A program made the translations under genes and the position numbers. The notes beneath the pieces were generated by a model. That model saw nothing but the letters and a program-made list of their open reading frames with translations, was not told the DNA's origin and ran no database searches. From Fibrobacter sp. UWB13 (GTDB taxonomy: Bacteria > Fibrobacterota > Fibrobacteria > Fibrobacterales > Fibrobacteraceae), in contig NZ_FXAX01000004.1 in NCBI RefSeq assembly GCF_900177805.1, positions 124,001 through 188,000 of the forward strand: a stretch of DNA of 64,000 nucleotides, read 5' to 3'. This document shows positions 16,934-29,613 of the stretch, piece after piece (positions within the stretch are counted from its first letter, which is position 1; every line of letters begins with the position of its first letter).

Positions 16934-18694
16934 TTACTTCACAACCGCATTGGCGTGGCCTACGTAAATGGCCTGCAAGGCGCCAGCGAGATATGCAAGC
17001 GGAGCGTTCCAGTTGATGGCCACTTCGTTTGTCGCATAGCTGCAGCGGTTATCGATGTAAGCAAGTGCCGGCTTGTCTGCAACAGCGTAGTTCGGGCACT
17101 TCCAAAGTTCCTTGCCATCGAGGTTGATGTCCTGCTTGCCCAAGTGCGGACCGCCCACGAGCATGCCCGGGACCGGATCATCGACAAAGTCAGATTCGCT
17201 CACGCGATGGTGCGGGTTGCGCGGGCTTCTGTAGCCAAAGCCAGTCACGTACGTCATTTCAATCGGGTTCTTGCCCAAGAGGTAATCGAGGCACTGCTGG
17301 GCGCCATCCAAGTAGCTCTTGTCGCCCGTGATGTAATAAGCATGCAGCAACACGATTCCGTTGTTTGCCATGGCACTGTTACTGCCCCAGTTCCAGCTCG
17401 ACGGAAGAGCCGGGAGTCTGTAAGCGCTCGTATCGCCAACCGCACGGAGTTCGTTTGCAGCGGCAAGCAAAGCCTTGCGAGCAGCACCACCGAGCTTTGC
17501 GCCAAAATCAGCAGAATCTAAAGCCACATGGTAAACAGCGAGCATGTTCACATCGCCCCACCACGGTCCATCGCTTCTGATCTTGTAAGCGCTTAAGTCG
17601 TTGAGGTAATTCTTCTTCTTTGTGGCGCGGAAAAGTTCTGTTGCCGCAAAGGCAAATTCATCCTTGCCGTCTTCGCCGCCATACGTATAGTCACCTGTCT
17701 GCACATCGGAAGGCTGCTTGTACAAAGCCTTCGGATTGTGCTTAGCCCAGTAATAGGCGGCACCAGAAGCCTTGAGCATGCGGTCTGCAAAAGCCTTGTC
17801 GAACGGAGCATACACGCGAGATGCCTGAGCCATCACTGCAGCAAAGTCAAGCGTTGCAGTCAAGCTCTTTTCAATCGCATAACGCTTGGCGCCATCAATT
17901 TCAGGCATCGTGCTAGAGCCAAACTTGAGCGACGTGAGCTTGTGATAAACGGCACCATCCTTGTCCTGCATCGAAAGCATCCAGTCCAGATTCCAGCGGA
18001 TTTCTTCGAGGAGTGAAGGCATCTTCGGAAATTCACGCGGGATGTTCCACTGGAGCGTATCCATGAAAGCCGGGAAGTGTTCATAAAGTTCCAAGAGCGT
18101 AAACACAGTAATGCCCGAGTTCACGATGTACTTGCCATAGTCACCGGCATCGTACCAACCACGCTGCGACTTGATAATCTTCGGGTCGGCCTTCTTGGGA
18201 GCGGGCTTGCCCTTGGACTGAGCAACGACCGTCGCCGTCGGCAAATCTGTACCGTAAACAGTCACGCTATCGTCGATGTGGCCTGCCGCACGAGCCCACT
18301 TGCCTGCATAGCGCGTATCGAGAGCCATACCTGCACGCTGGTAGTAGAACCACTTGAGGGCGGCCTTTGTCAAATCTTCGTAAACATTCTCGCCTATCAC
18401 GACCGGATTACCGATATAGCCGTCTCTGTACAGGCGGTACGTACCCGGTTTCTTGATCGAAGAAATATCATAGGTCTGGACTTCTTCGCCACTATAGTCC
18501 CAATCGTAAACCATCGGAGCTTCGAGCGTAAGCACCGTGTTGCCCGCCATGTCACGGACTTCGAGCGGGTTCGCATCGTTACCGGGAATGACGACCGTCT
18601 TTTCGGATTCGGGGGCAAAGCCAAGCTGGTTCACCAGGGGGATAGCCATTGTCGGCACAGCAAACGCTAACGCAGCTACTAGATGTTTACGCAT
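16934..18694 (-). CDS. Secreted GH9 endoglucanase (cellulase)
   Basis: A 586-aa inverting cellulase. A signal peptide is followed by a CelD_N-type Ig-like domain (about 20-100, VNQLGFAPESEKTVVI) and a GH9 alpha/alpha barrel. Catalytic machinery is complete: GWYDAGDYGKY near 179-189 supplies the base Asp, SPRNPHHR the conserved His/Arg, and YATNEVAINWN the acid Glu near 557. No carbohydrate-binding module or sorting tail follows. The second ATG (18694, MRKHLVAALAF) is chosen because AGG sits 6 bases before it; an in-frame ATG is 12 bases upstream. Confidence 0.93.
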   Translation of the reverse strand: MRKHLVAALAFAVPTMAIPLVNQLGFAPESEKTVVIPGNDANPLEVRDMAGNTVLTLEAPMVYDWDYSGEEVQTYDISSIKKPGTYRLYRDGYIGNPVVIGENVYEDLTKAALKWFYYQRAGMALDTRYAGKWARAAGHIDDSVTVYGTDLPTATVVAQSKGKPAPKKADPKIIKSQRGWYDAGDYGKYIVNSGITVFTLLELYEHFPAFMDTLQWNIPREFPKMPSLLEEIRWNLDWMLSMQDKDGAVYHKLTSLKFGSSTMPEIDGAKRYAIEKSLTATLDFAAVMAQASRVYAPFDKAFADRMLKASGAAYYWAKHNPKALYKQPSDVQTGDYTYGGEDGKDEFAFAATELFRATKKKNYLNDLSAYKIRSDGPWWGDVNMLAVYHVALDSADFGAKLGGAARKALLAAANELRAVGDTSAYRLPALPSSWNWGSNSAMANNGIVLLHAYYITGDKSYLDGAQQCLDYLLGKNPIEMTYVTGFGYRSPRNPHHRVSESDFVDDPVPGMLVGGPHLGKQDINLDGKELWKCPNYAVADKPALAYIDNRCSYATNEVAINWNAPLAYLAGALQAIYVGHANAVVK

Positions 18695-18821
18695 AGAAAA
18701 CCTCATTTTTGCTTAAAAAATACCTTTTCTTTTGTAAAAGCGTACCTCCACCACCCATTTTAATGTTTACTATAGGCAACGCTAAGTGTATCGAGTGTAG
18801 CGGGCGGACTCGCCGTAGTAC

Positions 18822-18898: not shown

Positions 18899-19954
18899 TT
18901 ACTTCTTCTTACCCGGCTTGTAGTTCACGCCCGGACGGAGTTCGAGGCCAACCGTCACGAGGAGCGAAACGATCGGTTCGTAGTGGTCCTGAGAGAGGTC
19001 GTACACGGCAACGCCTGCCATGCCTTCGCTCTTTACATGCTGGGCAACAGCCTTCACAGACGGGATACCCATGAACACGATAGATTCGGTTTCGCTCACA
19101 GCCACTTCGGACTTGGAAGCTTCATCGAATGTCACCGTGTAATCCGGAGTGTCGAAGCGGTTCATGAGTTCAGCATACGGGAGGTAACCTTCGTTACCGC
19201 TGCCCACCCCCTGATGGCTCGTGCCGAGGCCCTTTGCACCTGCAAAGGACTTACCATACATGAACACCACCGGAGCAAGGAGGTCCTTGTTCACACCAGC
19301 AGCTGCAACAGCGTCAAGCGTTTCCTGCACAGAGTTTGCGCTCTGGTTCGGAACGAGGCTGCTTTCACTTTCGGTCATGAGGTCCGTCATGAACACGTCC
19401 ACGTAAGCGAGGCGGTTCAAGGCTTCGGCCTTGTAGGCATCCATGCCGGATGCCGGGTAAATCACGGCAGTCACCGTCGAGCCCGAAAGACCGTCGACCA
19501 AGGCGTTCACCATCTTGGCGTAATCTTCGGAATCATCCGTCGTGAGGTTCTGCCAGTCGAGTTCAACACCGTCACCACCGTTCGTTGCAATCCAGTCCTT
19601 CACGTTAGAGACGAAGGAAGAAAGCGTTTCGTCGGAGGAGGCGATAGCCTTGAGGCTCGATTCCGCTTCCATGCCGCCCACGGAAACGATGAGCTTCACA
19701 CCGTTTTCCTTGGACATGGTAGCGAGGTTCTTGAAGTTGTCGGCATCGTATTCGTCGGCAAAGGCAACCGTACCTTCTGCACTCGGAGTGATAGACATGT
19801 AGTGAATATCAGTCACGAGATTGTAGCGGATGTCCTTGGCGTAGAACTGGGAATACTGACTCCAATACGGATAGAAGCCAATCACTTTGTCAGCAGCAGC
19901 CTGGGCCATAGCAGCGCCCATAGCAAGAGCCAATGTAATAACTTTAAAGTTCAT
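18899..19954 (-). CDS. Secreted GH18-fold protein lacking the catalytic Glu
   Basis: A 351-aa protein with signal peptide (MNFKVITLALAMGAAMAQAA) and a GH18 TIM barrel: VIGFYPYWSQY at strand 1, LIVSVGGM (SxGG motif) near 88-95, GDGVELDWQN at 127-136. The family signature DGxDxDxE is here DGVELDWQ: the acid/base Glu is Gln135 (codon 19550-19552) and the middle Asp is Glu131. Chitinase activity is therefore unlikely; a glycan-binding, chitinase-like lectin role is inferred. The tail ends in KPGKKK. Last gene of a tight six-gene operon; start follows AGAGG by 8 bases. Confidence 0.8.
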   Translation of the reverse strand: MNFKVITLALAMGAAMAQAAADKVIGFYPYWSQYSQFYAKDIRYNLVTDIHYMSITPSAEGTVAFADEYDADNFKNLATMSKENGVKLIVSVGGMEAESSLKAIASSDETLSSFVSNVKDWIATNGGDGVELDWQNLTTDDSEDYAKMVNALVDGLSGSTVTAVIYPASGMDAYKAEALNRLAYVDVFMTDLMTESESSLVPNQSANSVQETLDAVAAAGVNKDLLAPVVFMYGKSFAGAKGLGTSHQGVGSGNEGYLPYAELMNRFDTPDYTVTFDEASKSEVAVSETESIVFMGIPSVKAVAQHVKSEGMAGVAVYDLSQDHYEPIVSLLVTVGLELRPGVNYKPGKKK

Positions 19955-19971
19955 TTGATAACCTCTCATCC

Positions 19972-20616
19972 TTATTGAATCAGACGATCAACGCCATTGG
20001 CGTCACGGCAATACAAGTTGTAATCCGGAACAAAATCTTCGGCATACTGGACACCTTCAAGCTGCTGACCGGCAATCGGCAGTTCAGAGCGAGGAGTACC
20101 AAGTTCCGTCGGAAGGCAATAACGATATGCCCAACCATGGATTCTGCCATACATGTTGAAGTGCTGGCTAATACCCATGTAATCCACAGGAATAGCGGTC
20201 AACAAGGCAAGGTCATTGTCAACGCCTACATAATTGTAGCCGTCAGCCAAAGACTGGAGCTTGGTTGCGTCAGCAGAGAAGGTTTCCCATCCTGCTTCCG
20301 TTCCACCGCCCATGTACGGGTCCAGATAAATGGCTTTCAGAGTCTCAAGGTTTGTCACGAAAACAGCATCTTCTGCAGCCTTCAGTTTATTAAAATCAGG
20401 GAGCTTAAGTCCCGCATTTACCCTGAACTGTTCGTTATAGTCCGCCACCGTTTCCCTGATCTGCATCATGCGCAATTCCGGATGCAATTTCATGTACACT
20501 TCCGAATTGAAGTCTGCAGGGAAGCTATCGACATAGGGATCATCAACACTCATCGAGGAGCAGGCGCCCAAAACACCTGCCAAGAGAATCATCGTGTACT
20601 GGTGAAGTTTTTTCAT
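19972..20616 (-). CDS. Lipoprotein of the six-gene outer-membrane operon
   Basis: A 214-aa lipoprotein with signal peptide and lipobox LAGVLGACSS (Cys about residue 19). The mature part is rich in aromatic and acidic residues (SEVYMKLHPELRMMQIRETV, DLALLTAIPVDYMGISQHFN) and matches no family I recognise. ATG 20616 is preferred over a GTG three codons earlier because AGAGG lies 8 bases before it. Gaps of 12 and 17 bases to its neighbours imply co-translation with the barrel and GH18-like genes, as expected for an accessory subunit of an outer-membrane complex. Confidence 0.7.
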   Translation of the reverse strand: MKKLHQYTMILLAGVLGACSSMSVDDPYVDSFPADFNSEVYMKLHPELRMMQIRETVADYNEQFRVNAGLKLPDFNKLKAAEDAVFVTNLETLKAIYLDPYMGGGTEAGWETFSADATKLQSLADGYNYVGVDNDLALLTAIPVDYMGISQHFNMYGRIHGWAYRYCLPTELGTPRSELPIAGQQLEGVQYAEDFVPDYNLYCRDANGVDRLIQ

Positions 20617-20628
20617 TTTCAGCACCTC

Positions 20629-22809
20629 TTAGAAATTCACCGTCACATCGGCGGAAAGTATGTTCTTGGTGATGGAAAGCTTGTCTTCGCCCGCAACAGC
20701 ACCAGTATTATAAGAATACTGAAGTTCGTTGGTAAGCATGCCATACTGCAAGGACAAGTAAGAAATCGGAGCAAGTTTCACACGGACACCAGCCATGATC
20801 AAGCGTTCGTTAGTTTCCTTCACGTTAAAGAGGAAGGGAGCTTCTTCGGTGCCGCCGACAAACGGGACGCCACCTCTGTCAAAGACCTTCTTATACTGCT
20901 GGAAACCGGCGAGCAAGCCGAACGGACCCCAAACATCGGCGGTAATACCGGCAACGATGCGAGTAGCCTTACGCTTGAGGTAAGCGTTTTCGGAAGCCTG
21001 CGAGAAAGAGCCCTGAACGAGAATCTGGCGATCGAGAGCGGCGAGTGCACCAACATCGACACCAAGACCCGCAGCAAATTCCGTAAACTTGTTCTCTTCA
21101 ATTACCGGGATACCAAGACCTGCCCATTTGCCATAGTTGGCATAAGTTTGAGTCAACAGGTTGACACGGCCATTGAAGAACACCTTGTCTTCCCAGTTCA
21201 CATCGACCTGGGCGACAATACCCTTACGGTCAGGAGTAGCCATGCCGAACGGCAATGCAAGACCGACAGACGGATCGATATCCATCAAAAGGTCCTGTTC
21301 GGCTTCGAGCTTCTTCGCAATATTACCCGTGTAACCGTTGCGGTAGAAGTGGCCATTCTTGTAGTTGTTGTCCAAGCGAGAATACATGTACTTGCTTTCT
21401 TCATCGTTAGACAAGGTATTCGTGCTGTTCGAGGTCATCAAGTTGCTTGCATTCAATGTCGTGGAATTATAGACATTGAAGTAGAGATTTTCGAGGCTAG
21501 AAGCTCCGAAAGTCGACATGATGGCTTCAGTAACCGGAGTACCGTAGAAGGAGTTCGAATTGAGGATCACCGAACGTCCATGATAGATCGGAGAAGATGC
21601 CAGTTCAGACCAGAAGCTGGAATCCGTCTTGAGGTAACCGGCCTGAGCATTGAACTCAATACCACTAATGTCACCCTTCACAAAGAGGTTGGCATAGAAG
21701 CTGTTACCATCCTGATCGCGGTAATCCTGGTTCGTATAGACATTCGCATCAGAAACTGAGTTCTTGACGTAGACAATATCCTTGCCGTCCACATTCTTGG
21801 ACATGATGGTATATTTCGACGTCTTTTCCGTCGTCATGTAGTCACGATCGACCTTCCACTTGGACATGGCAAATTCGCCGTTCAAGCCAAAGGTAACCGG
21901 AAGTTCCGGGAGCACCTTCTTGGAATCGAAAGCGAGGTCAGCAGAAATGACCATGTTGTTGTCGTAATAGATCGTATCGGCATTGTCGATCGACTTCGAG
22001 CGGCGAGTCTGCTTGCGGTCCATCAAGTTGACGAAGTTCACGCCAAGATGGGCTCCATAAGCATCGGCACCGGCACGTGCACCGAGGAGGTAACGGTCAG
22101 AGAAGTCGAAGTCAAAGAACACCTGGTCGGTCTTCTTACCCGTGTTGCGAAGACGGGCACCCGTGAGCTGAGCGGTGATATTATCGACCGGACCCACATT
22201 ACCACTCTGGTAAGCGACATTGAGACCCTGCAACAGGCGGCGGCTCGTGGTATCGAGGTTACGCTTTGCAAGAGCTTCGCGACGCTTTTCCGCAAAGATT
22301 TCCGGTTCCTGGAGGATTTCGGTCTGCGGAGTGTAAATGGTGAGCGGGGTATAACCGACACGCATGTAACCCAAGTTGAAGTCCACATGCTTATTGAGGA
22401 TCGTACCGTCGTAGCTGAACCAATGACCGATAATCGGGTTGTTGTTTTCGTCGTAAGCGCTCTGCCAATCCTTGTGCAAGCGCAACTGGACGTCAATCAT
22501 GGTTTCAGAACTCGGACGAGCGGTCAAGCGCAGGTTCACATCCGTGAAAGCCTGGTTTTCCTGAGTCGGAGATTCCGGAACGCCTTTTGCAAACTGATCG
22601 GAAGAAGCGAAGGAAGCGAGAGCGCCAGCCTTTGCCGTACCGTTAATCTTAAGTCCAAGAACTGCTGCATTGAGAGAATCCAGCTTTTCCAACAAGGACT
22701 TCTGTTGCGTCACAACCTCAGCCTGGTTTTCAGCAGCAAAAGCAGATGCGGCCGAGAAAGCTACTGCGGAGGTCAGTAAAAATTTGCGCATGTTCATATT
22801 GAAATTCAT
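20629..22809 (-). CDS. Outer-membrane beta-barrel protein 3 of the operon
   Basis: A 726-aa predicted barrel. Signal peptide (ASAFA near 20-25), a short coiled-coil stretch (VVTQQKSLLEKLDSLNAAVL, 32-51), then alternating beta strands to a C-terminal strand ending SADVTVNF, with the terminal Phe typical of BAM substrates. Residues 148-200 hold a segment shared with the next gene upstream (PLTIYTPQTEILQEPEIFAE then RRLLQGLNVAY). No plug or TonB box was recognised. The start follows GGGAGGT. Function is unknown; porin, adhesin or glycan transport are possible. Confidence 0.72.
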   Translation of the reverse strand: MNFNMNMRKFLLTSAVAFSAASAFAAENQAEVVTQQKSLLEKLDSLNAAVLGLKINGTAKAGALASFASSDQFAKGVPESPTQENQAFTDVNLRLTARPSSETMIDVQLRLHKDWQSAYDENNNPIIGHWFSYDGTILNKHVDFNLGYMRVGYTPLTIYTPQTEILQEPEIFAEKRREALAKRNLDTTSRRLLQGLNVAYQSGNVGPVDNITAQLTGARLRNTGKKTDQVFFDFDFSDRYLLGARAGADAYGAHLGVNFVNLMDRKQTRRSKSIDNADTIYYDNNMVISADLAFDSKKVLPELPVTFGLNGEFAMSKWKVDRDYMTTEKTSKYTIMSKNVDGKDIVYVKNSVSDANVYTNQDYRDQDGNSFYANLFVKGDISGIEFNAQAGYLKTDSSFWSELASSPIYHGRSVILNSNSFYGTPVTEAIMSTFGASSLENLYFNVYNSTTLNASNLMTSNSTNTLSNDEESKYMYSRLDNNYKNGHFYRNGYTGNIAKKLEAEQDLLMDIDPSVGLALPFGMATPDRKGIVAQVDVNWEDKVFFNGRVNLLTQTYANYGKWAGLGIPVIEENKFTEFAAGLGVDVGALAALDRQILVQGSFSQASENAYLKRKATRIVAGITADVWGPFGLLAGFQQYKKVFDRGGVPFVGGTEEAPFLFNVKETNERLIMAGVRVKLAPISYLSLQYGMLTNELQYSYNTGAVAGEDKLSITKNILSADVTVNF

Positions 22810-22824
22810 TCTAGTTACCTCCCA

Positions 22825-25071
22825 TTAAAATTCCACATTAATGGAAGCTTCAAAGATAGACTGACTAAACTTATGCTGGTAGGTTCCCGTTACACCATCA
22901 GCCTTGCCCTTCTTGGTATTGCTGAAGTAATCAGGCAGATTACGCGGCGTACCGGTAACGGTAGCGGTGTTATAGTCATTCGTCACATTGATCATGCCGT
23001 AGTTGATAGCGAGCCATGCATTGTCGGCGACCGTGTAGTCAAAGCCAACCATCCACTGCATCTGCTTGCTCTTCATGAGAGGAATGTCAGCACCGACTTT
23101 CGTTTCGACATTGCCGACACCGTAATCGGAATTGATCATCTGGAAACCAGCCGTAAAGCCGAGACGCGGCAAGAACTGGGCGCAGAGGCCAGCGTTGATG
23201 AAGTCGCTCTTAAGAGTGCCGACCACACCGCCGTACATCATGTTGTTCTTGCTTTCGGAATGCTTGTAAGAACCGGATACTTCCAAAGCCTTGCTGAGAC
23301 CAGCAATCTTGGCGATATCAACCTTGGCGCCACCGCCGAATTCCATGTAGGAAACCTTGTCCAAGCCTTCAATTTCAGGCTTGACCTGATTGAAGATGCT
23401 CACGAGAGCCTGAGCTTCAACCATTCCCTGCCAGTCGCCCTTGATAAGAGCGCGGACACCCATGCGGTTTGCAGTGGCAAGACCGTTCGGCAAGGCAAGC
23501 TGAAGAGCCGGATCCATCATCAAATTGAGGAGAGCGAGCTGTTCAGCGGTATAGACGTTAGAACCCCAGGAGTTCTTGTTATACGGAGCGATGTTGTAGC
23601 TCTTGGACTGACCGTCCCTAATCTTATCGTCGTTCGTACCGAGAGAGCGGGTCATCGGAGAGAACTTCGGAGAGTAGTTGTAGAGAGCGTCAAAGGTGGA
23701 GTAAAGCGGAGAGTTCACGCCGTACTTGACCGTTTCGCCATCCTTATCGGAGTTCAAGATGCGCTGAGCAAAGAAGCTCGGAGACTGGGCGAGGTTGTTG
23801 AACCACTTTTCATCGTTGCGGATGAAGTCGAGGGCAAGACCTGCACTCCAGCTATTGTCCACCTTGTAACCCACGTTCAAGTTAGCAAGAATTGCAGAAC
23901 CGTTAGCAGATTCTTCGGTCGTAGGAAGGGTAAGCTGGGTATAAACTGTTTCACCAGTTTCAGGATCCGTCAGTTCTTCACCAGTTGTAGGATCGATAGC
24001 GGCCGGGCCCTGGACAACCTTGCTCAACGTCTTCGTCTTGTTCATGGACATGGCGTATTCAGCAACAAGGTCAAGAGTCAGGTTCTTGTTCTGCATGAGG
24101 GCAGCCACATCGGCACCGACGCGAGCGCTCAGCACGAACGTATTCTGCAAAGCATCATCGTACGGATTGATCTGCTGCATTTCGTAAGGGTTAGCCTTAT
24201 CTCCAGGAACGAAGCCCACCGGGTCCCTGTTCACATGGCGGTAAGTATAAGAGTTGGTGCTCTCGTTATCGAAAATGAGCATCGGAGTCACGCCGACAAA
24301 GATATTCTTCTGCATCGGCAATAGTTCGATGTTGCCACCGACAAGCCACTTGTCCGTTGCAGAGGCAAGCGACGTACCATCGACTTCATCACCCGGAAGG
24401 ATGTTGCCTTCGGCACCGGTAAAGTCAAGCACCGACACGCGGTTCACGCGGGCGAAGAATGCTTCGGCACGGAGTTCACCAATCATCGGGTCGATTTCCT
24501 GACGGAACTGGAGATTCACACCCTGGAGGTTGCGCTTGTTGCCTTCGAGGAGCTGTTCCTTCTGGGCCATGTGGCGTTTACGGGCGAAAATCGTCGGTTC
24601 GTACATGATGTCGATACCCGGATTGTAGATCGTAAGCGGAGTGATTTCCTGACGGAAGTCACCGACAACCCAGTAGAAGTTCTTGCCGATATTGCCTTCG
24701 ACATTGAGCCACTTGGCTTCGAGAGTCTTAGATGCAGCAGCAAAGTATTCCTGCATACCGCCGCCAAGGCGCATCGTCACGTTGGCGCGGACAAATTCGT
24801 ACGGACGGAAACCGAAGTTCAAGTCAGCACTGACGAATTCGTTGCGTTCCACATCCGTCATGTTGTTGATACCGGTCGGATCGTTATCCGTAGAGAAACT
24901 GGAGCGCTGTGCTACAGCACGGATGCTACCGCCAATTTCAACGCCACGCTTGGCGTTTGCACTATCAGCCTTGGCCTGCAAAGCCTTTTGATTATCCGCA
25001 ACAGCGGAAGCCGATGCGGCAACCGAGGCAGAAAGAAGGGCGATTAAAAGTCTTTTCATTTTCATATTCAT
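22825..25071 (-). CDS. Outer-membrane beta-barrel protein 2 of the operon
   Basis: A 748-aa predicted barrel paralogous to its downstream neighbour. Signal peptide ending ASASA, a short helix (NQKALQAKADSANAKRG), then beta strands ending EASINVEF. The shared segment lies at 136-190 (VVGDFRQEITPLTIYNPGID, then YEPTIFARKRH and RNLQGVNLQF). GGGAGG directly abuts the first ATG of the frame (25080), so the third in-frame codon position, ATG 25071, is the likely start. Distances of 15 bases on each side fit one transcript. Confidence 0.72.
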   Translation of the reverse strand: MNMKMKRLLIALLSASVAASASAVADNQKALQAKADSANAKRGVEIGGSIRAVAQRSSFSTDNDPTGINNMTDVERNEFVSADLNFGFRPYEFVRANVTMRLGGGMQEYFAAASKTLEAKWLNVEGNIGKNFYWVVGDFRQEITPLTIYNPGIDIMYEPTIFARKRHMAQKEQLLEGNKRNLQGVNLQFRQEIDPMIGELRAEAFFARVNRVSVLDFTGAEGNILPGDEVDGTSLASATDKWLVGGNIELLPMQKNIFVGVTPMLIFDNESTNSYTYRHVNRDPVGFVPGDKANPYEMQQINPYDDALQNTFVLSARVGADVAALMQNKNLTLDLVAEYAMSMNKTKTLSKVVQGPAAIDPTTGEELTDPETGETVYTQLTLPTTEESANGSAILANLNVGYKVDNSWSAGLALDFIRNDEKWFNNLAQSPSFFAQRILNSDKDGETVKYGVNSPLYSTFDALYNYSPKFSPMTRSLGTNDDKIRDGQSKSYNIAPYNKNSWGSNVYTAEQLALLNLMMDPALQLALPNGLATANRMGVRALIKGDWQGMVEAQALVSIFNQVKPEIEGLDKVSYMEFGGGAKVDIAKIAGLSKALEVSGSYKHSESKNNMMYGGVVGTLKSDFINAGLCAQFLPRLGFTAGFQMINSDYGVGNVETKVGADIPLMKSKQMQWMVGFDYTVADNAWLAINYGMINVTNDYNTATVTGTPRNLPDYFSNTKKGKADGVTGTYQHKFSQSIFEASINVEF

Positions 25072-25086
25072 CTTTAGCATCCTCCC

Positions 25087-27372
25087 TTAGAACCAAGCCT
25101 TGGTTTCAGCAGCGATGTAATGGGAATGCCAATTATTTTCAGAAACGGTTTCGTCAGAGTGCGTCATGAACTTGTAGCGGAAGTGGAGACCCACACGGTC
25201 GGAGAAGTCCCAGTCAAAGCCAAGGCCAATAGCGAAGTCCTTGTAGTTGATCGGAGCCTTTTCATAAATGTAGGTACTGACTTCGTTAATACGGCTCTTG
25301 TTCTTTGCCGAAGCAGACCACTGAGGCATAGCCTTACCGGTTTCACGGGCGACATAAGCCTGGCTAGACCTGAACGTTTCGAGACCGAGGATACCCACCA
25401 TGTGGAATGTCGGAGTCACGGCAACAGTCGGTTCAAACTGACCGTAGAAACTCGTCATGAGCATGTCGAACGTGTTTTCGGAAACGGCGATCGGGGCAAA
25501 CGAAGTAGAAACACCGGAGAGAGCAACAAAAGCGGTCATCATGATGTTGCGGTCGGTACCGAACCAGTGACCAATATCGTAACCACCCATGAAGGACATG
25601 TAGCTAGACCACTTGGCGTGTTCCGGAACCTGTCTGAAAACAGCCTGTTCACCGTTTTCATAAGCGGCGAAAGATTCCCACATTTCCCAAGTACCACCAT
25701 AAAGACCACCATGCTGGCGATACATCTTAACGCCATCAGCAGCAATCTTTTCGACACCGACACGGGAAACATAGGACGTACCGGAGCTGTTACCGGAGTC
25801 AGCCACGAAAAGCGGCTTGTGCTTGGTCCAGGAGTTGGTGCTTTCCCAAATGTTGCGGCCGTTCAAGCGGTAGTTGAACGAAATCACGTCCTTGCCTGCT
25901 TCGATCTGGCGATGCTGAGCATACTGGAAGTCAAAGTAGCCACGGTTGAAGCTCGGTTCCAACTTGAAGTTGATACCAGCCATGTTCGGGGAGTAGCGGA
26001 GAGCACCACCGTTGAGGTAGAATTCATCCTTGCGCCAGCCCGGGAAACGGGACGGGTTCGTAAGAGAGTACGGAGAATAGAAGCCCGGCTGGAAGAACAC
26101 GAGTTCTGCAGTCATCGGCCAGCCTTCGATATACTTGCTCTGAGCCTTGACATAGATACCGATCTTCGGATCGCCAACGCTAGATCTCTTGGTATCAACA
26201 GAATAACCAGAAGACTTATTGGTTGCCTTATAGTCATCAATGACTTCGGACTGGTAGAATGCCGTAGTATCAACAATGCTCAAGCCCAAGTCAGCCATCA
26301 AGAAGAGCTTCGGTGTAACGTTGCCCTTGACATCGATAGAAGCCACGTGGGTATTGAGGAGTCTCGGAGTTGCATCACCGGTACTCTGGATACCATAGTT
26401 AAGCCACTGGTCACGGAATTCATCTTCGCGGATGATACCGTCATCATAAGTGACGCCCAAGTAGTTCACGCCAACGGTCAGGTTGTCGGCAATCTTTTCC
26501 TTGGCGATACGGCCATGAAGGATTGTACCACGGAAATCGTAGCCACCCATCATTTCGAGTTCGCCCGGCTGGCCACCGTACATACGGAGACCGTCACGAG
26601 TTGCCACGTCGGCATCCATCGGCTGGGACACGAGGAACTGAGCCTTCAAGTCATACGGGAGCTGGTAGACGTTAGCAAAGACGCCACCGAAGGAGCGGTT
26701 CGTCCAGAAAGCACGACCACCTTCCTTGACCGGCTTGAATGCCTTTTCCTTATAGTAGGTAGAAACGGTCTTTTCGTCTTCGAAAAGTTCGTACTGCCAT
26801 ACGAAACGCGGGTTCGTTTCACGTTCCCACATGGTAAGCGGGGAAGCGTTAGCCCAGATAACACCGCCTGCGGTAATGTAGGCGCCGAACACACCTGCAC
26901 GGATATCGACACCGACGTTCAATTCTTCATTGATGGTCGATGCATAGTAGTCCGTAGAGTGATCGTAAAGGACGCGTTCATCGTAATAGGCAGGAGTCTG
27001 AGTCGGGTGCTTAGCCAAGTCGTTCGTAAAGATACCGCTCAAGTCGAACGGGAACGAGAGGTTCGTAAACAACGTAATGTAGGAGTTCGGCATGGCGACG
27101 ACGTTCACATTCAAGACTGCATCGACGCTTGTACGTGCCTGGTCATCCTTGACCCACGGGCTCTGTTCAGAATAGTGGAAATTCTTCAAACGGAAAGCCA
27201 TGTAACCGGAGACTGCCAGTGGCAGATCGTCCTTGCCGAGAAGAGTCGATTCCATGTTGTTGGAAAGAGTATCCAACGAAGCGTGAAGGGAATCAAGCTG
27301 CAACTGCGGAGGAAGAGCCCACGCAGCACCGAGGCTAGACGCTAATAAAAGGGAAGAAACTGTTTTGCGCAT
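25087..27372 (-). CDS. Outer-membrane beta-barrel protein 1 of the operon
   Basis: A 761-aa predicted barrel, the most divergent of the three. It has a signal peptide (MRKTVSSLLLASSLGAAWAL), a helix (LQLDSLHASLDTLSNNMEST, 24-43), many aromatic-rich strands and a C-terminal strand ending AAETKAWF. The PLTMW segment near 178-182 corresponds to PLTIY in the other two. AGAGGA precedes the ATG. No known family signature was found; outer-membrane location is inferred from the signal peptide, strand pattern and final Phe. Confidence 0.7.
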   Translation of the reverse strand: MRKTVSSLLLASSLGAAWALPPQLQLDSLHASLDTLSNNMESTLLGKDDLPLAVSGYMAFRLKNFHYSEQSPWVKDDQARTSVDAVLNVNVVAMPNSYITLFTNLSFPFDLSGIFTNDLAKHPTQTPAYYDERVLYDHSTDYYASTINEELNVGVDIRAGVFGAYITAGGVIWANASPLTMWERETNPRFVWQYELFEDEKTVSTYYKEKAFKPVKEGGRAFWTNRSFGGVFANVYQLPYDLKAQFLVSQPMDADVATRDGLRMYGGQPGELEMMGGYDFRGTILHGRIAKEKIADNLTVGVNYLGVTYDDGIIREDEFRDQWLNYGIQSTGDATPRLLNTHVASIDVKGNVTPKLFLMADLGLSIVDTTAFYQSEVIDDYKATNKSSGYSVDTKRSSVGDPKIGIYVKAQSKYIEGWPMTAELVFFQPGFYSPYSLTNPSRFPGWRKDEFYLNGGALRYSPNMAGINFKLEPSFNRGYFDFQYAQHRQIEAGKDVISFNYRLNGRNIWESTNSWTKHKPLFVADSGNSSGTSYVSRVGVEKIAADGVKMYRQHGGLYGGTWEMWESFAAYENGEQAVFRQVPEHAKWSSYMSFMGGYDIGHWFGTDRNIMMTAFVALSGVSTSFAPIAVSENTFDMLMTSFYGQFEPTVAVTPTFHMVGILGLETFRSSQAYVARETGKAMPQWSASAKNKSRINEVSTYIYEKAPINYKDFAIGLGFDWDFSDRVGLHFRYKFMTHSDETVSENNWHSHYIAAETKAWF

Positions 27373-27381
27373 AAAATCCTC

Positions 27382-28125
27382 TTAAATCTCGTTGCGGAAC
27401 GGATAATGAGCCGGGCCTTCGTACGGCTTGCCATGCTTCTTAATCACAATATCATCGATCCAAACTTTGAAGGATTCGTTTTCATCCTTGCGGACTTCGA
27501 GACGGAAGCCCTTGAAGTTGGACCATGCGAACGGGAGCATCACTTCGCGCGTGTTCTTCGCATCCCAGTACACACCGGTATTGCCGAAGAGCTTCAGAGG
27601 AATGCTGAAGTGCTTCCATTCGGTCGTAATTTCACCAAGGCTCTTGGAACGGAGCTTAACCTGGAGGGATTCGCCGTTGCTCTTCACGCCATCGTCAACG
27701 AGCACGAACAAGGCGTTTTCGCCACCCTGGGCACCTTTAAGCCAAAATTCGAGAACACCTTCTTCCAAATACGGAGTCAGGTCCACGGAACCCGCAATAC
27801 AAATGGCGACACCGGAATAGTCGCTCGCGATAAGTTCGATTTCCATGGAGAGAGCACCTTCCATAGCGTACTTATCCGTGAGTACCGGTTCGGGGTTTTC
27901 ACGCGGATACTGGTAGGTATAGCCACCACCACGCGGAATAGCTTCACGCATGACAACGGTGACAACTTCCTTATCAGGACGGAACGGCTTAGGATCCTTC
28001 ATGACAAAGTGGGACTGGTCGCGGTCGCGGTAATCGCTAAAGCCGTAGCCAGCAAAAGAAGATGAAGCAAGAAGCATCGCCGCTAGAGCGGACTTCCAAA
28101 TGGCTTTTTTTAAGTTTCCATTCAT
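27382..28125 (-). CDS. Secreted CBM11/CIA30-like beta-sandwich protein, first gene of the operon
   Basis: A 247-aa secreted protein. After the signal peptide (ending ASSSFA) residues about 75-240 resemble the galactose-binding-like fold of CBM11/CIA30 proteins: GALSMEIELIASDYSGVAIC, LEFWLKGAQGGENALFVLVD, FSIPLKLF, NFKGFRLEVRKDENESFKVW and IDDIVIKK. In CBM11 this fold binds beta-glucans, so glucan binding is inferred. The start at ATG 28125 (MNGNLKKAIW) is preferred over an ATG 30 bases upstream. The gap to the first barrel gene is 9 bases. Confidence 0.68.
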   Translation of the reverse strand: MNGNLKKAIWKSALAAMLLASSSFAGYGFSDYRDRDQSHFVMKDPKPFRPDKEVVTVVMREAIPRGGGYTYQYPRENPEPVLTDKYAMEGALSMEIELIASDYSGVAICIAGSVDLTPYLEEGVLEFWLKGAQGGENALFVLVDDGVKSNGESLQVKLRSKSLGEITTEWKHFSIPLKLFGNTGVYWDAKNTREVMLPFAWSNFKGFRLEVRKDENESFKVWIDDIVIKKHGKPYEGPAHYPFRNEI

Positions 28126-28262
28126 AATAGGTACAATTCTCCAAATTCGGATCATCTACAATATAGCTTGTTTTTGGGAATTTTCGATCCAGTGTTTTGC
28201 AAAAAAGGCTTTGCAAAGCTAGATGTATCAACGAAATACCGCTTGCTAAGCCACATAAACGC

Positions 28263-28361: not shown

Positions 28362-28452
28362 ATAAGATAAGCATGTTTTTAATTTTCTAATTTTTGTTTT
28401 ATATAGATTTTGAGAACACGCATTTAAGTATCATAACCTTTTGGGGGTTACC

Positions 28453-29613
28453 ATGATTAAAAAGATTCTTTCTGCAATGGCAATCGGATGCCTCTTTTGC
28501 GCATGCGACAACGGCACCGCTCCTCCGCCGGCCGCATCATCCAGCAACAAAAGCACAGCCGTTCCCGTAGACTACACCGCCGGAAGAACCATGAACAAGA
28601 TTCTTGGCCGCGGCATCAATCTCGGTAACTCCTGGGATTCCGATGGAAACGATGACAGCGGCTGGGGTAACCCCATCCGCGATACGGATTTCGCCATCAT
28701 CAAGGCAGCGGGTTTCAACTCCGTCCGCATCCCGGTCCGCTGGCAGAACGGTTCCGACTATACCAACCATACCGTTAATCCGGATCGTCTGGCAGGCGTC
28801 CTCGAAGATATCCGACTCGCCATCGCAAACGGCCTTGCCGTTGTCGTGAATTTCCACCATTATACCGACCTGAACTGTGCCGGTGGCGGCGGAACCGGTT
28901 GCACTTACAACGCCGCCGAATTCGAAGCCGAAAAGACACACTTCCTCATGATGTGGGCACAGGTGGCACAGGCTATGGGTGAATTTCAGGATAACCAGGT
29001 CGTTCTCGAAATCTTGAATGAGCCCATCATCCCGAACGCAACGCTTGTGGACCAGCTGATGCTTGACGCCTACACCGTCATCCGCACGTACGCTCCGGGC
29101 AAGACCATCATGTTTGAAACCTACCATGCCGCAAAGTTCGAAGACCTCGAAAGCCTGCACTTGCCGCAAGACGGAAACATCATCTTTAGCGGACACTACT
29201 ATCAGCCATACCAGTACAGCCATCAAGGTCATCACGGTAACAAGTGCCTTGGCGACGGTGCCTTCGCCAACACGGCAGCATCCGACATGCAAATTTACAA
29301 GGCTCTCGCCCGCCGTCTTTATCCCGACATCAACGGTACCGATCACGTCCCTTTGAACATGGGTGAATTCGGTGTCGCCGGCGGTAGCAACATGGGACAG
29401 TGCGTATGGTACAATCAGAACGGAGATCCGGAACAAGGCGTTTGGCCCACAGACCAAAATAAAGCCGCATGGGCTCAAAAGACCGCTCAGGCAGCCATAT
29501 CTAGCGGGATGTCCTTCCATTATTGGGGATTTGGTCAGACAGGCGGATTTGACGCCTACAACGTATATAGCGAAACCTGGTATCCGGGATTCCCGCAGGC
29601 ACTGTTACAATAA
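28453..29613 (+). CDS. GH5 endoglucanase (cellulase), probable lipoprotein
   Basis: A 386-aa retaining cellulase. The N-terminus (MIKKILSAMAIGCLFCAC) ends in a lipobox-like Cys18, followed by a Pro/Ser linker, so it is probably surface- or membrane-anchored. The GH5 barrel starts LGRGINLGNSWD; acid/base Glu190 lies in LEILNEPI and nucleophile Glu305 in NMGEFGV, with VVNFHHY and SGHYYQPYQYS lining the cleft. A Gly-rich Cys pair (LNCAGGGGTGC) may form a loop disulfide. ATG 28453 follows GGGGG; an upstream in-frame TTG is ignored. It is divergent from the outer-membrane operon. Confidence 0.93.
   Translation: MIKKILSAMAIGCLFCACDNGTAPPPAASSSNKSTAVPVDYTAGRTMNKILGRGINLGNSWDSDGNDDSGWGNPIRDTDFAIIKAAGFNSVRIPVRWQNGSDYTNHTVNPDRLAGVLEDIRLAIANGLAVVVNFHHYTDLNCAGGGGTGCTYNAAEFEAEKTHFLMMWAQVAQAMGEFQDNQVVLEILNEPIIPNATLVDQLMLDAYTVIRTYAPGKTIMFETYHAAKFEDLESLHLPQDGNIIFSGHYYQPYQYSHQGHHGNKCLGDGAFANTAASDMQIYKALARRLYPDINGTDHVPLNMGEFGVAGGSNMGQCVWYNQNGDPEQGVWPTDQNKAAWAQKTAQAAISSGMSFHYWGFGQTGGFDAYNVYSETWYPGFPQALLQ

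Follow-up and report, generated by a model that had tools for sequence, protein, structure and literature searches.

The GH18-like protein encoded in the 64,000-nucleotide stretch of Fibrobacter sp. UWB13 DNA analyzed in this study (the window) lacks the catalytic Glu of its family, as does every one of its orthologues in the Fibrobacteraceae, a family of cellulose-digesting gut bacteria, and its gene, routinely annotated as a chitinase, is the last of six in a conserved operon. Taken together, the results make it reasonably likely that this dead GH18 protein (a pseudo-chitinase) is a fixed subunit of a complex, that its catalytic acid was lost a single time on the stem of the family, and that it most likely binds beta-1,4-glucan at the cell surface.

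The gene occupies positions 18899-19969 on the minus strand and encodes 356 amino acids from an upstream ATG or 351 amino acids from the ATG at 19954; residue numbers refer to the 351-residue version, as in the initial annotation. The product contains a signal peptide and matches PF00704 over profile positions 1-317 of 317 (E = 6.6e-31), with a score of 108.6 bits compared to a cut-off of 29.6, which places it within the GH18 family; a search of NCBIfam returned a single match, to ChiD, far below the cut-off. Direct reading of the sequence confirmed the signature described in the initial annotation, where the remnant of the DGxDxDxE motif is DGVELDWQ (19550-19573, minus strand): CTG at 19550-19552 on the plus strand is CAG on the minus strand, encoding Gln135, and the middle Asp is replaced by Glu131 (19562-19564). 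The AlphaFold2 model, for which 54 orthologues were used (mean pLDDT 88), shows a GH18 TIM barrel with an alpha+beta insertion, and its closest folds in the PDB are chitinases and chitinase-like lectins, among them BRP39/YKL-40, Ym1 and RobpsCRA (Z approximately 36, rmsd approximately 2.2 A over approximately 315 residues). The protein ends in a conserved tail, LRPxxxYxxKKK (18902-18934), in which Pro341 is invariant and Arg340 and Tyr345 are nearly so, and which has a polybasic end; no such tail is apparent in the C-terminal sequences of the active sister GH18s described below.

A six-frame search covered 167 genomes of the phylum, 126 of which contained a match at E values up to 1e-5, including some other GH18s. 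Among Fibrobacteraceae genomes at least 90% complete, 60 of 60 contained a true orthologue, as counted by hand from the search table. The orthologue set comprised 105 distinct Fibrobacteraceae proteins with 38-100% identity to the window's protein, none of which has Glu at the catalytic position. The most commonly observed residue was Gln (80 proteins), followed by Gly (12), Ile (5), Val (2), Leu (2), and one each of Thr, Ala, Met (L099) and Asp (L108). The last of these is a divergent orthologue (L108 9499-10548, in G146) with the motif HGVEVYWD, in which Asp stands at the catalytic position and Tyr replaces Asp133. Compared to the orthologues, the FSU_3030-like GH18 paralogues of the genus retain an intact motif in 20 of 20 cases (DGLDMDWE in 19, DGIDMDWE in one). 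Chance or sequencing error as the source of Gln135 was rejected on these counts, since Glu is absent from 105 of 105 orthologues and present in 20 of 20 paralogues, and Gln itself was rejected as the key residue because 25 orthologues carry one of the other eight. Of the claims made in the initial annotation, the loss of the catalytic Glu and of catalysis is strongly supported, both by these counts and by the replacement of further active-site residues; no orthologue with an intact DxxDxDxE motif, which the annotation had named as contrary evidence, was found among the 105. Its question of whether Gln is fixed is answered in the negative: the conserved feature is the absence of Glu and not the identity of Gln. 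Its proposal that the protein binds a glycan remains an inference, in keeping with the cellulose binding reported for the S85 orthologue discussed below.

The changes in the active site extend well past Glu135. The 105 orthologues were set beside 38 active GH18s from the phylum, comprising five sister proteins and 33 others. Eight residues shared by almost all of the active proteins have changed in the orthologues: Phe101, Asp131 (now Glu), Glu135, Met188, Tyr190 (of MxYD), Gly229, Met316 and Trp318 (now Tyr or Phe), with the ancestral residue retained in a few orthologues at positions 101 and 188. Most of these are known residues of the GH18 -1 subsite and of substrate-assisted catalysis, in which the Tyr of MxYD and the Trp of beta8 hold the N-acetyl group. 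The final Glu, the Tyr of MxYD and the Trp of beta8, by which an active chitinase would be recognized, are therefore all missing from the GH18-like protein, and it is almost certainly not an enzyme. At the same time, the orthologues have gained invariant residues of their own, including Q33, Y34, S35, Q36, R43, D67, E98, E131, N203, G249, G251, S252, N254, Y272, S282, E283, P341 and Y345, the first four of which form the QYSQ of the beta1 loop. The loss of old active-site residues combined with the gain of new invariants looks like a change of function rather than decay. Pairwise dN/dS against four close relatives is 0.04-0.07 for this gene, a sign of strong purifying selection. With loop boundaries set by the author from predicted secondary structure, entropy is lower in the ligand-facing loops than on the opposite side of the barrel, a modest difference (1.42 versus 1.73 bits, p = 0.02). 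Conservation is highest in the beta1 loop, at 0.64 bits, and in the insertion domain, at 1.00 bits, compared to an overall mean of 1.50 bits, and the conservation of the insertion domain would also fit contacts with other proteins.

The GH18-like gene closes an operon with the order CBM30-BB1-BB2-BB3-lipoprotein-GH18-like, in which all genes lie on the minus strand with intergenic gaps of 2 to 15 bases. The first gene (27382-28155) encodes a stand-alone CBM30 protein, the orthologue of Fisuc_1525/FSU_2007, and is followed by three genes for large outer-membrane beta-barrels, each with a C-terminal Phe: BB1 (25087-27372), the most conserved of the three, BB2 (22825-25080), with a weak match to PF13505, and BB3 (20629-22809), identified by homology and position. 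BB1 is itself predicted to be an outer-membrane barrel, and BB2 and BB3 were called as barrels from similarity, position and the C-terminal Phe. The fifth gene (19972-20625), separated from the GH18-like gene by 2 bases, encodes a fast-evolving lipoprotein with the lipobox LGAC. A divergently oriented GH5 cellulase gene (28441-29613, plus strand; Fisuc_1523 orthologue) lies on one side of the operon, and a GH9 cellulase gene (16934-18706, minus strand; Fisuc_1531 orthologue) lies 192 bases downstream; cellulases of GH5 and often of GH9 flank the operon in Fibrobacter, the GH9 gene being adjacent in only part of the genus.

The outer-membrane operon context put forward in the initial annotation was confirmed and is shared throughout the family. 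Almost all loci with sufficient flanking sequence have this gene order, BB2 being undetected in L055, and a lipoprotein-like open reading frame fills the gap wherever the lipoprotein escaped detection by BLAST. It is thus very probable that the GH18-like protein is a fixed part of an outer-membrane system. Against the same four relatives, pairwise dN/dS was 0.01-0.04 for the CBM30 gene, 0.14-0.22 for the barrels and 0.21-0.39 for the lipoprotein. The CBM30 protein is the most constrained product of the operon, with at least 67% identity across the family, and the lipoprotein, placed among slower-evolving genes, shows only 23-51% identity between relatives; its fast change suggests that it may be a surface-exposed variable subunit. 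No plug or TonB-receptor domain, as would be expected of a SusC/TonB-dependent transporter, was matched by Pfam in BB1-BB3 at E values up to 0.1. A fold search with BB1 recovered porin and siderophore-receptor barrels of a general kind and nothing more specific (best Z 15, low TM-scores); a chitoporin among them is tied with many other porins, and no specific transporter family is claimed. Promoter and terminator scans gave results at chance level.

The relatives of the protein point to an origin in chitin degradation. In the tree, the orthologues form one clade (support 100/100) joined with a sister group of active GH18s at 98/93, and a single loss of the catalytic acid is sufficient to explain this topology; the loss accordingly maps to one event on the Fibrobacteraceae stem. 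The active sister proteins, from three genomes of the same class (G156, G158 and G159; L123, L124 and L125; L186 and L187), have 30-32% identity and the motif DGIDLDWE or DGIDIDWE, and in all three genomes the active GH18 gene adjoins a divergently transcribed CBM30 homologue. In G158 and G159, where enough sequence is available, homologues of BB1-BB2-BB3 follow, then a large gene, then two more active GH18 genes. The large gene is assigned to GH20 by Pfam in G158, and its counterpart in G159 was called by similarity to the G158 gene; GH20 has no match in the window's genome. These loci, with CBM30, three barrels, GH20 and GH18s, extend over 6479-18967 of L186 and 268-15102 of L187, and by their gene content they are chitin-degradation loci built on the same CBM30-barrel module. 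Two genomes from the order to which the window's genome belongs (G041 and G042) have the CBM30 gene next to BB1; in G041, BB2 and BB3 come after BB1 and no GH18 gene is adjacent. The best reading of these patterns is that the target of an outer-membrane polysaccharide complex changed from chitin to cellulose and that the complex kept a non-catalytic GH18 subunit that is probably glycan-binding.

Gene order matches F. succinogenes S85 exactly, where Fisuc_1523 is the GH5 gene, 1525 the CBM30 gene, 1530 the GH18 gene (FSU_2012) and 1531 the GH9 gene, and the locus numbers 1525-1531 leave the right number of genes for CBM30, three barrels, lipoprotein, GH18 and GH9. The GH18-like gene is therefore the orthologue of FSU_2012/Fisuc_1530 (UniProt A7UG63, CBP-9), an equation made by synteny; the two share their place in the locus and a signal peptide but differ in label, as FSU_2012 is annotated as a chitinase, listed among the hemicellulases and linked to the chitinase activity of cells. 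FSU_2012 was detected in both the outer-membrane and the extracellular fraction (PMC4668043), and its expression is high and stable (PMC6204037). It was 1.30-fold lower on cellulose, a decrease tied to a fall in the endo-N-acetylglucosaminidase activity of cells (PMC6851124). If S85 resembles its relatives, however, that activity cannot come from FSU_2012, and the intact GH18 paralogue is the natural candidate. Later papers cite FSU_2012 as an outer-membrane cellulose-binding protein, one of them listing it as a chitinase with characterized cellulose binding (PMC3079729), and that binding could be indirect, through CBM30 partners. Within the incomplete range of literature covered, no paper was found that noted the dead active site of FSU_2012 or treated the operon as a unit.

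There are several potential explanations for the retention of such a protein. In the preferred one, the catalytic acid and the -1 subsite of an ancestral active chitinase would have disappeared a single time, on the Fibrobacteraceae stem, and the barrel would have been retained by strong purifying selection as a non-hydrolyzing module of a complex with the CBM30 protein, the three large beta-barrels and the variable lipoprotein. We infer that this complex lies at the cell surface, where the module would most likely bind beta-1,4-linked glucan (cellulose or cellodextrin) and might help in adhesion or in handing chains over to the barrels, while the neighboring GH5 and GH9 enzymes do the cutting. 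That the protein binds a beta-glucan is probable. Trp31 and Tyr34, in beta1 at the mouth of the cleft, are invariant in 105 of 105 orthologues, an aromatic residue is retained at the beta8 position in 103 of 105, and the S85 orthologue is listed as cellulose-binding. These observations argue against a subunit whose role is solely structural or protein-binding, such as that of a plug, lid or adaptor for the barrels or the lipoprotein, with cellulose binding provided by the CBM30 partner. We consider this alternative less likely, even though the whole -1 subsite is altered, the beta8 Trp included, the insertion domain and the C-terminal RP...Y tail are strongly conserved, and a dead GH18-like protein without measurable binding is known (BT1284).

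That the protein is still an enzyme, using another acid such as Glu131 or Asp191 or acting on an unusual substrate, is very improbable. Conservation of Glu131 (105/105), Asp133 (104/105) and Asp191 (101/105) is in its favor, but many different residues occur at the freely drifting catalytic position, neither the Tyr nor the Trp needed to hold the N-acetyl group is left, and position 131 lies buried beneath Asp133 in known GH18 structures. The endo-N-acetylglucosaminidase activity of S85 cells has been linked to FSU_2012 (PMC6851124); the intact GH18 paralogue in the same genomes can account for the measured activity. A decaying pseudogene or a misannotation would explain the lost catalytic residues and deserves practically no credence, as the frame is intact in all relatives and the operon position is fixed; the pseudogene was rejected on its low dN/dS and the intact frames.

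The picture of a glycan-binding subunit that was once a chitinase bears on the long-standing question of cellulose attachment and uptake in Fibrobacter. Tentatively, CBM30-BB1-BB2-BB3 may be a non-SusCD outer-membrane polysaccharide machine of the Fibrobacterota whose target has changed between chitin and cellulose, with the former chitinase of the Fibrobacteraceae as its non-cutting glycan-binding subunit and the whole as part of the cellulose adhesion or uptake apparatus of Fibrobacter. The compact six-gene operon is a testable candidate for an adhesion/uptake complex. In addition, an incorrect function (chitinase, peptidoglycan turnover) is removed from a highly expressed, family-wide protein. 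Hydrolysis of chitin by GH18 enzymes has been expected for all Fibrobacteres (PMC4704652, conclusion); counts of GH18 genes do not demonstrate it in the Fibrobacteraceae.

Loss of the catalytic acid with conversion to a lectin is known for animal GH18 proteins, including replacement of Glu by Gln in Ym1 and IDGF (PMC1945033), the same substitution as in the window's protein. Like the chitinase-like lectins YKL-40/BRP39, Ym1, insect IDGF and RobpsCRA, the protein combines a GH18 fold (Z approximately 36 to BRP39, YKL-40, Ym1 and RobpsCRA) with a lost catalytic Glu. Unlike these animal and plant proteins, it arose by an independent loss, is bacterial, is locked into an operon with outer-membrane barrels and has also lost the beta6 Tyr and beta8 Trp. 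Catalytically impaired GH18-like proteins that were shown to be inactive occur in Bacteroidales, and one of them, BT1284 of Bacteroides, had no measurable binding to the glycans tested, its expected glycan among them (PMC11180146). BT1284 and the GH18-like protein of B. faecium are likewise bacterial proteins with a GH18 barrel and replaced catalytic residues, encoded within or close to glycan-utilization loci; however, they are related to endo-beta-N-acetylglucosaminidases and fused to a DUF1735 beta-sandwich, while the window's protein has no DUF1735 and belongs to an operon with different partners. The FSU_3030-like protein that is the other GH18 of this genome (G000:C1:1235982) has approximately 25% identity, an intact motif of the DGLDMDWE type and a different genomic location. 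The active GH18s of G156, G158 and G159 share a homologous CBM30 neighbor with the window's protein, along with BB1-BB2-BB3 in G158 and G159, but differ in their intact motif, their divergent transcription and the presence of GH20 and two further active GH18s in the locus. Set against these systems, the Fibrobacteraceae protein would be a rare bacterial case in which a chitinase became a permanent, non-enzymatic component of a surface system.
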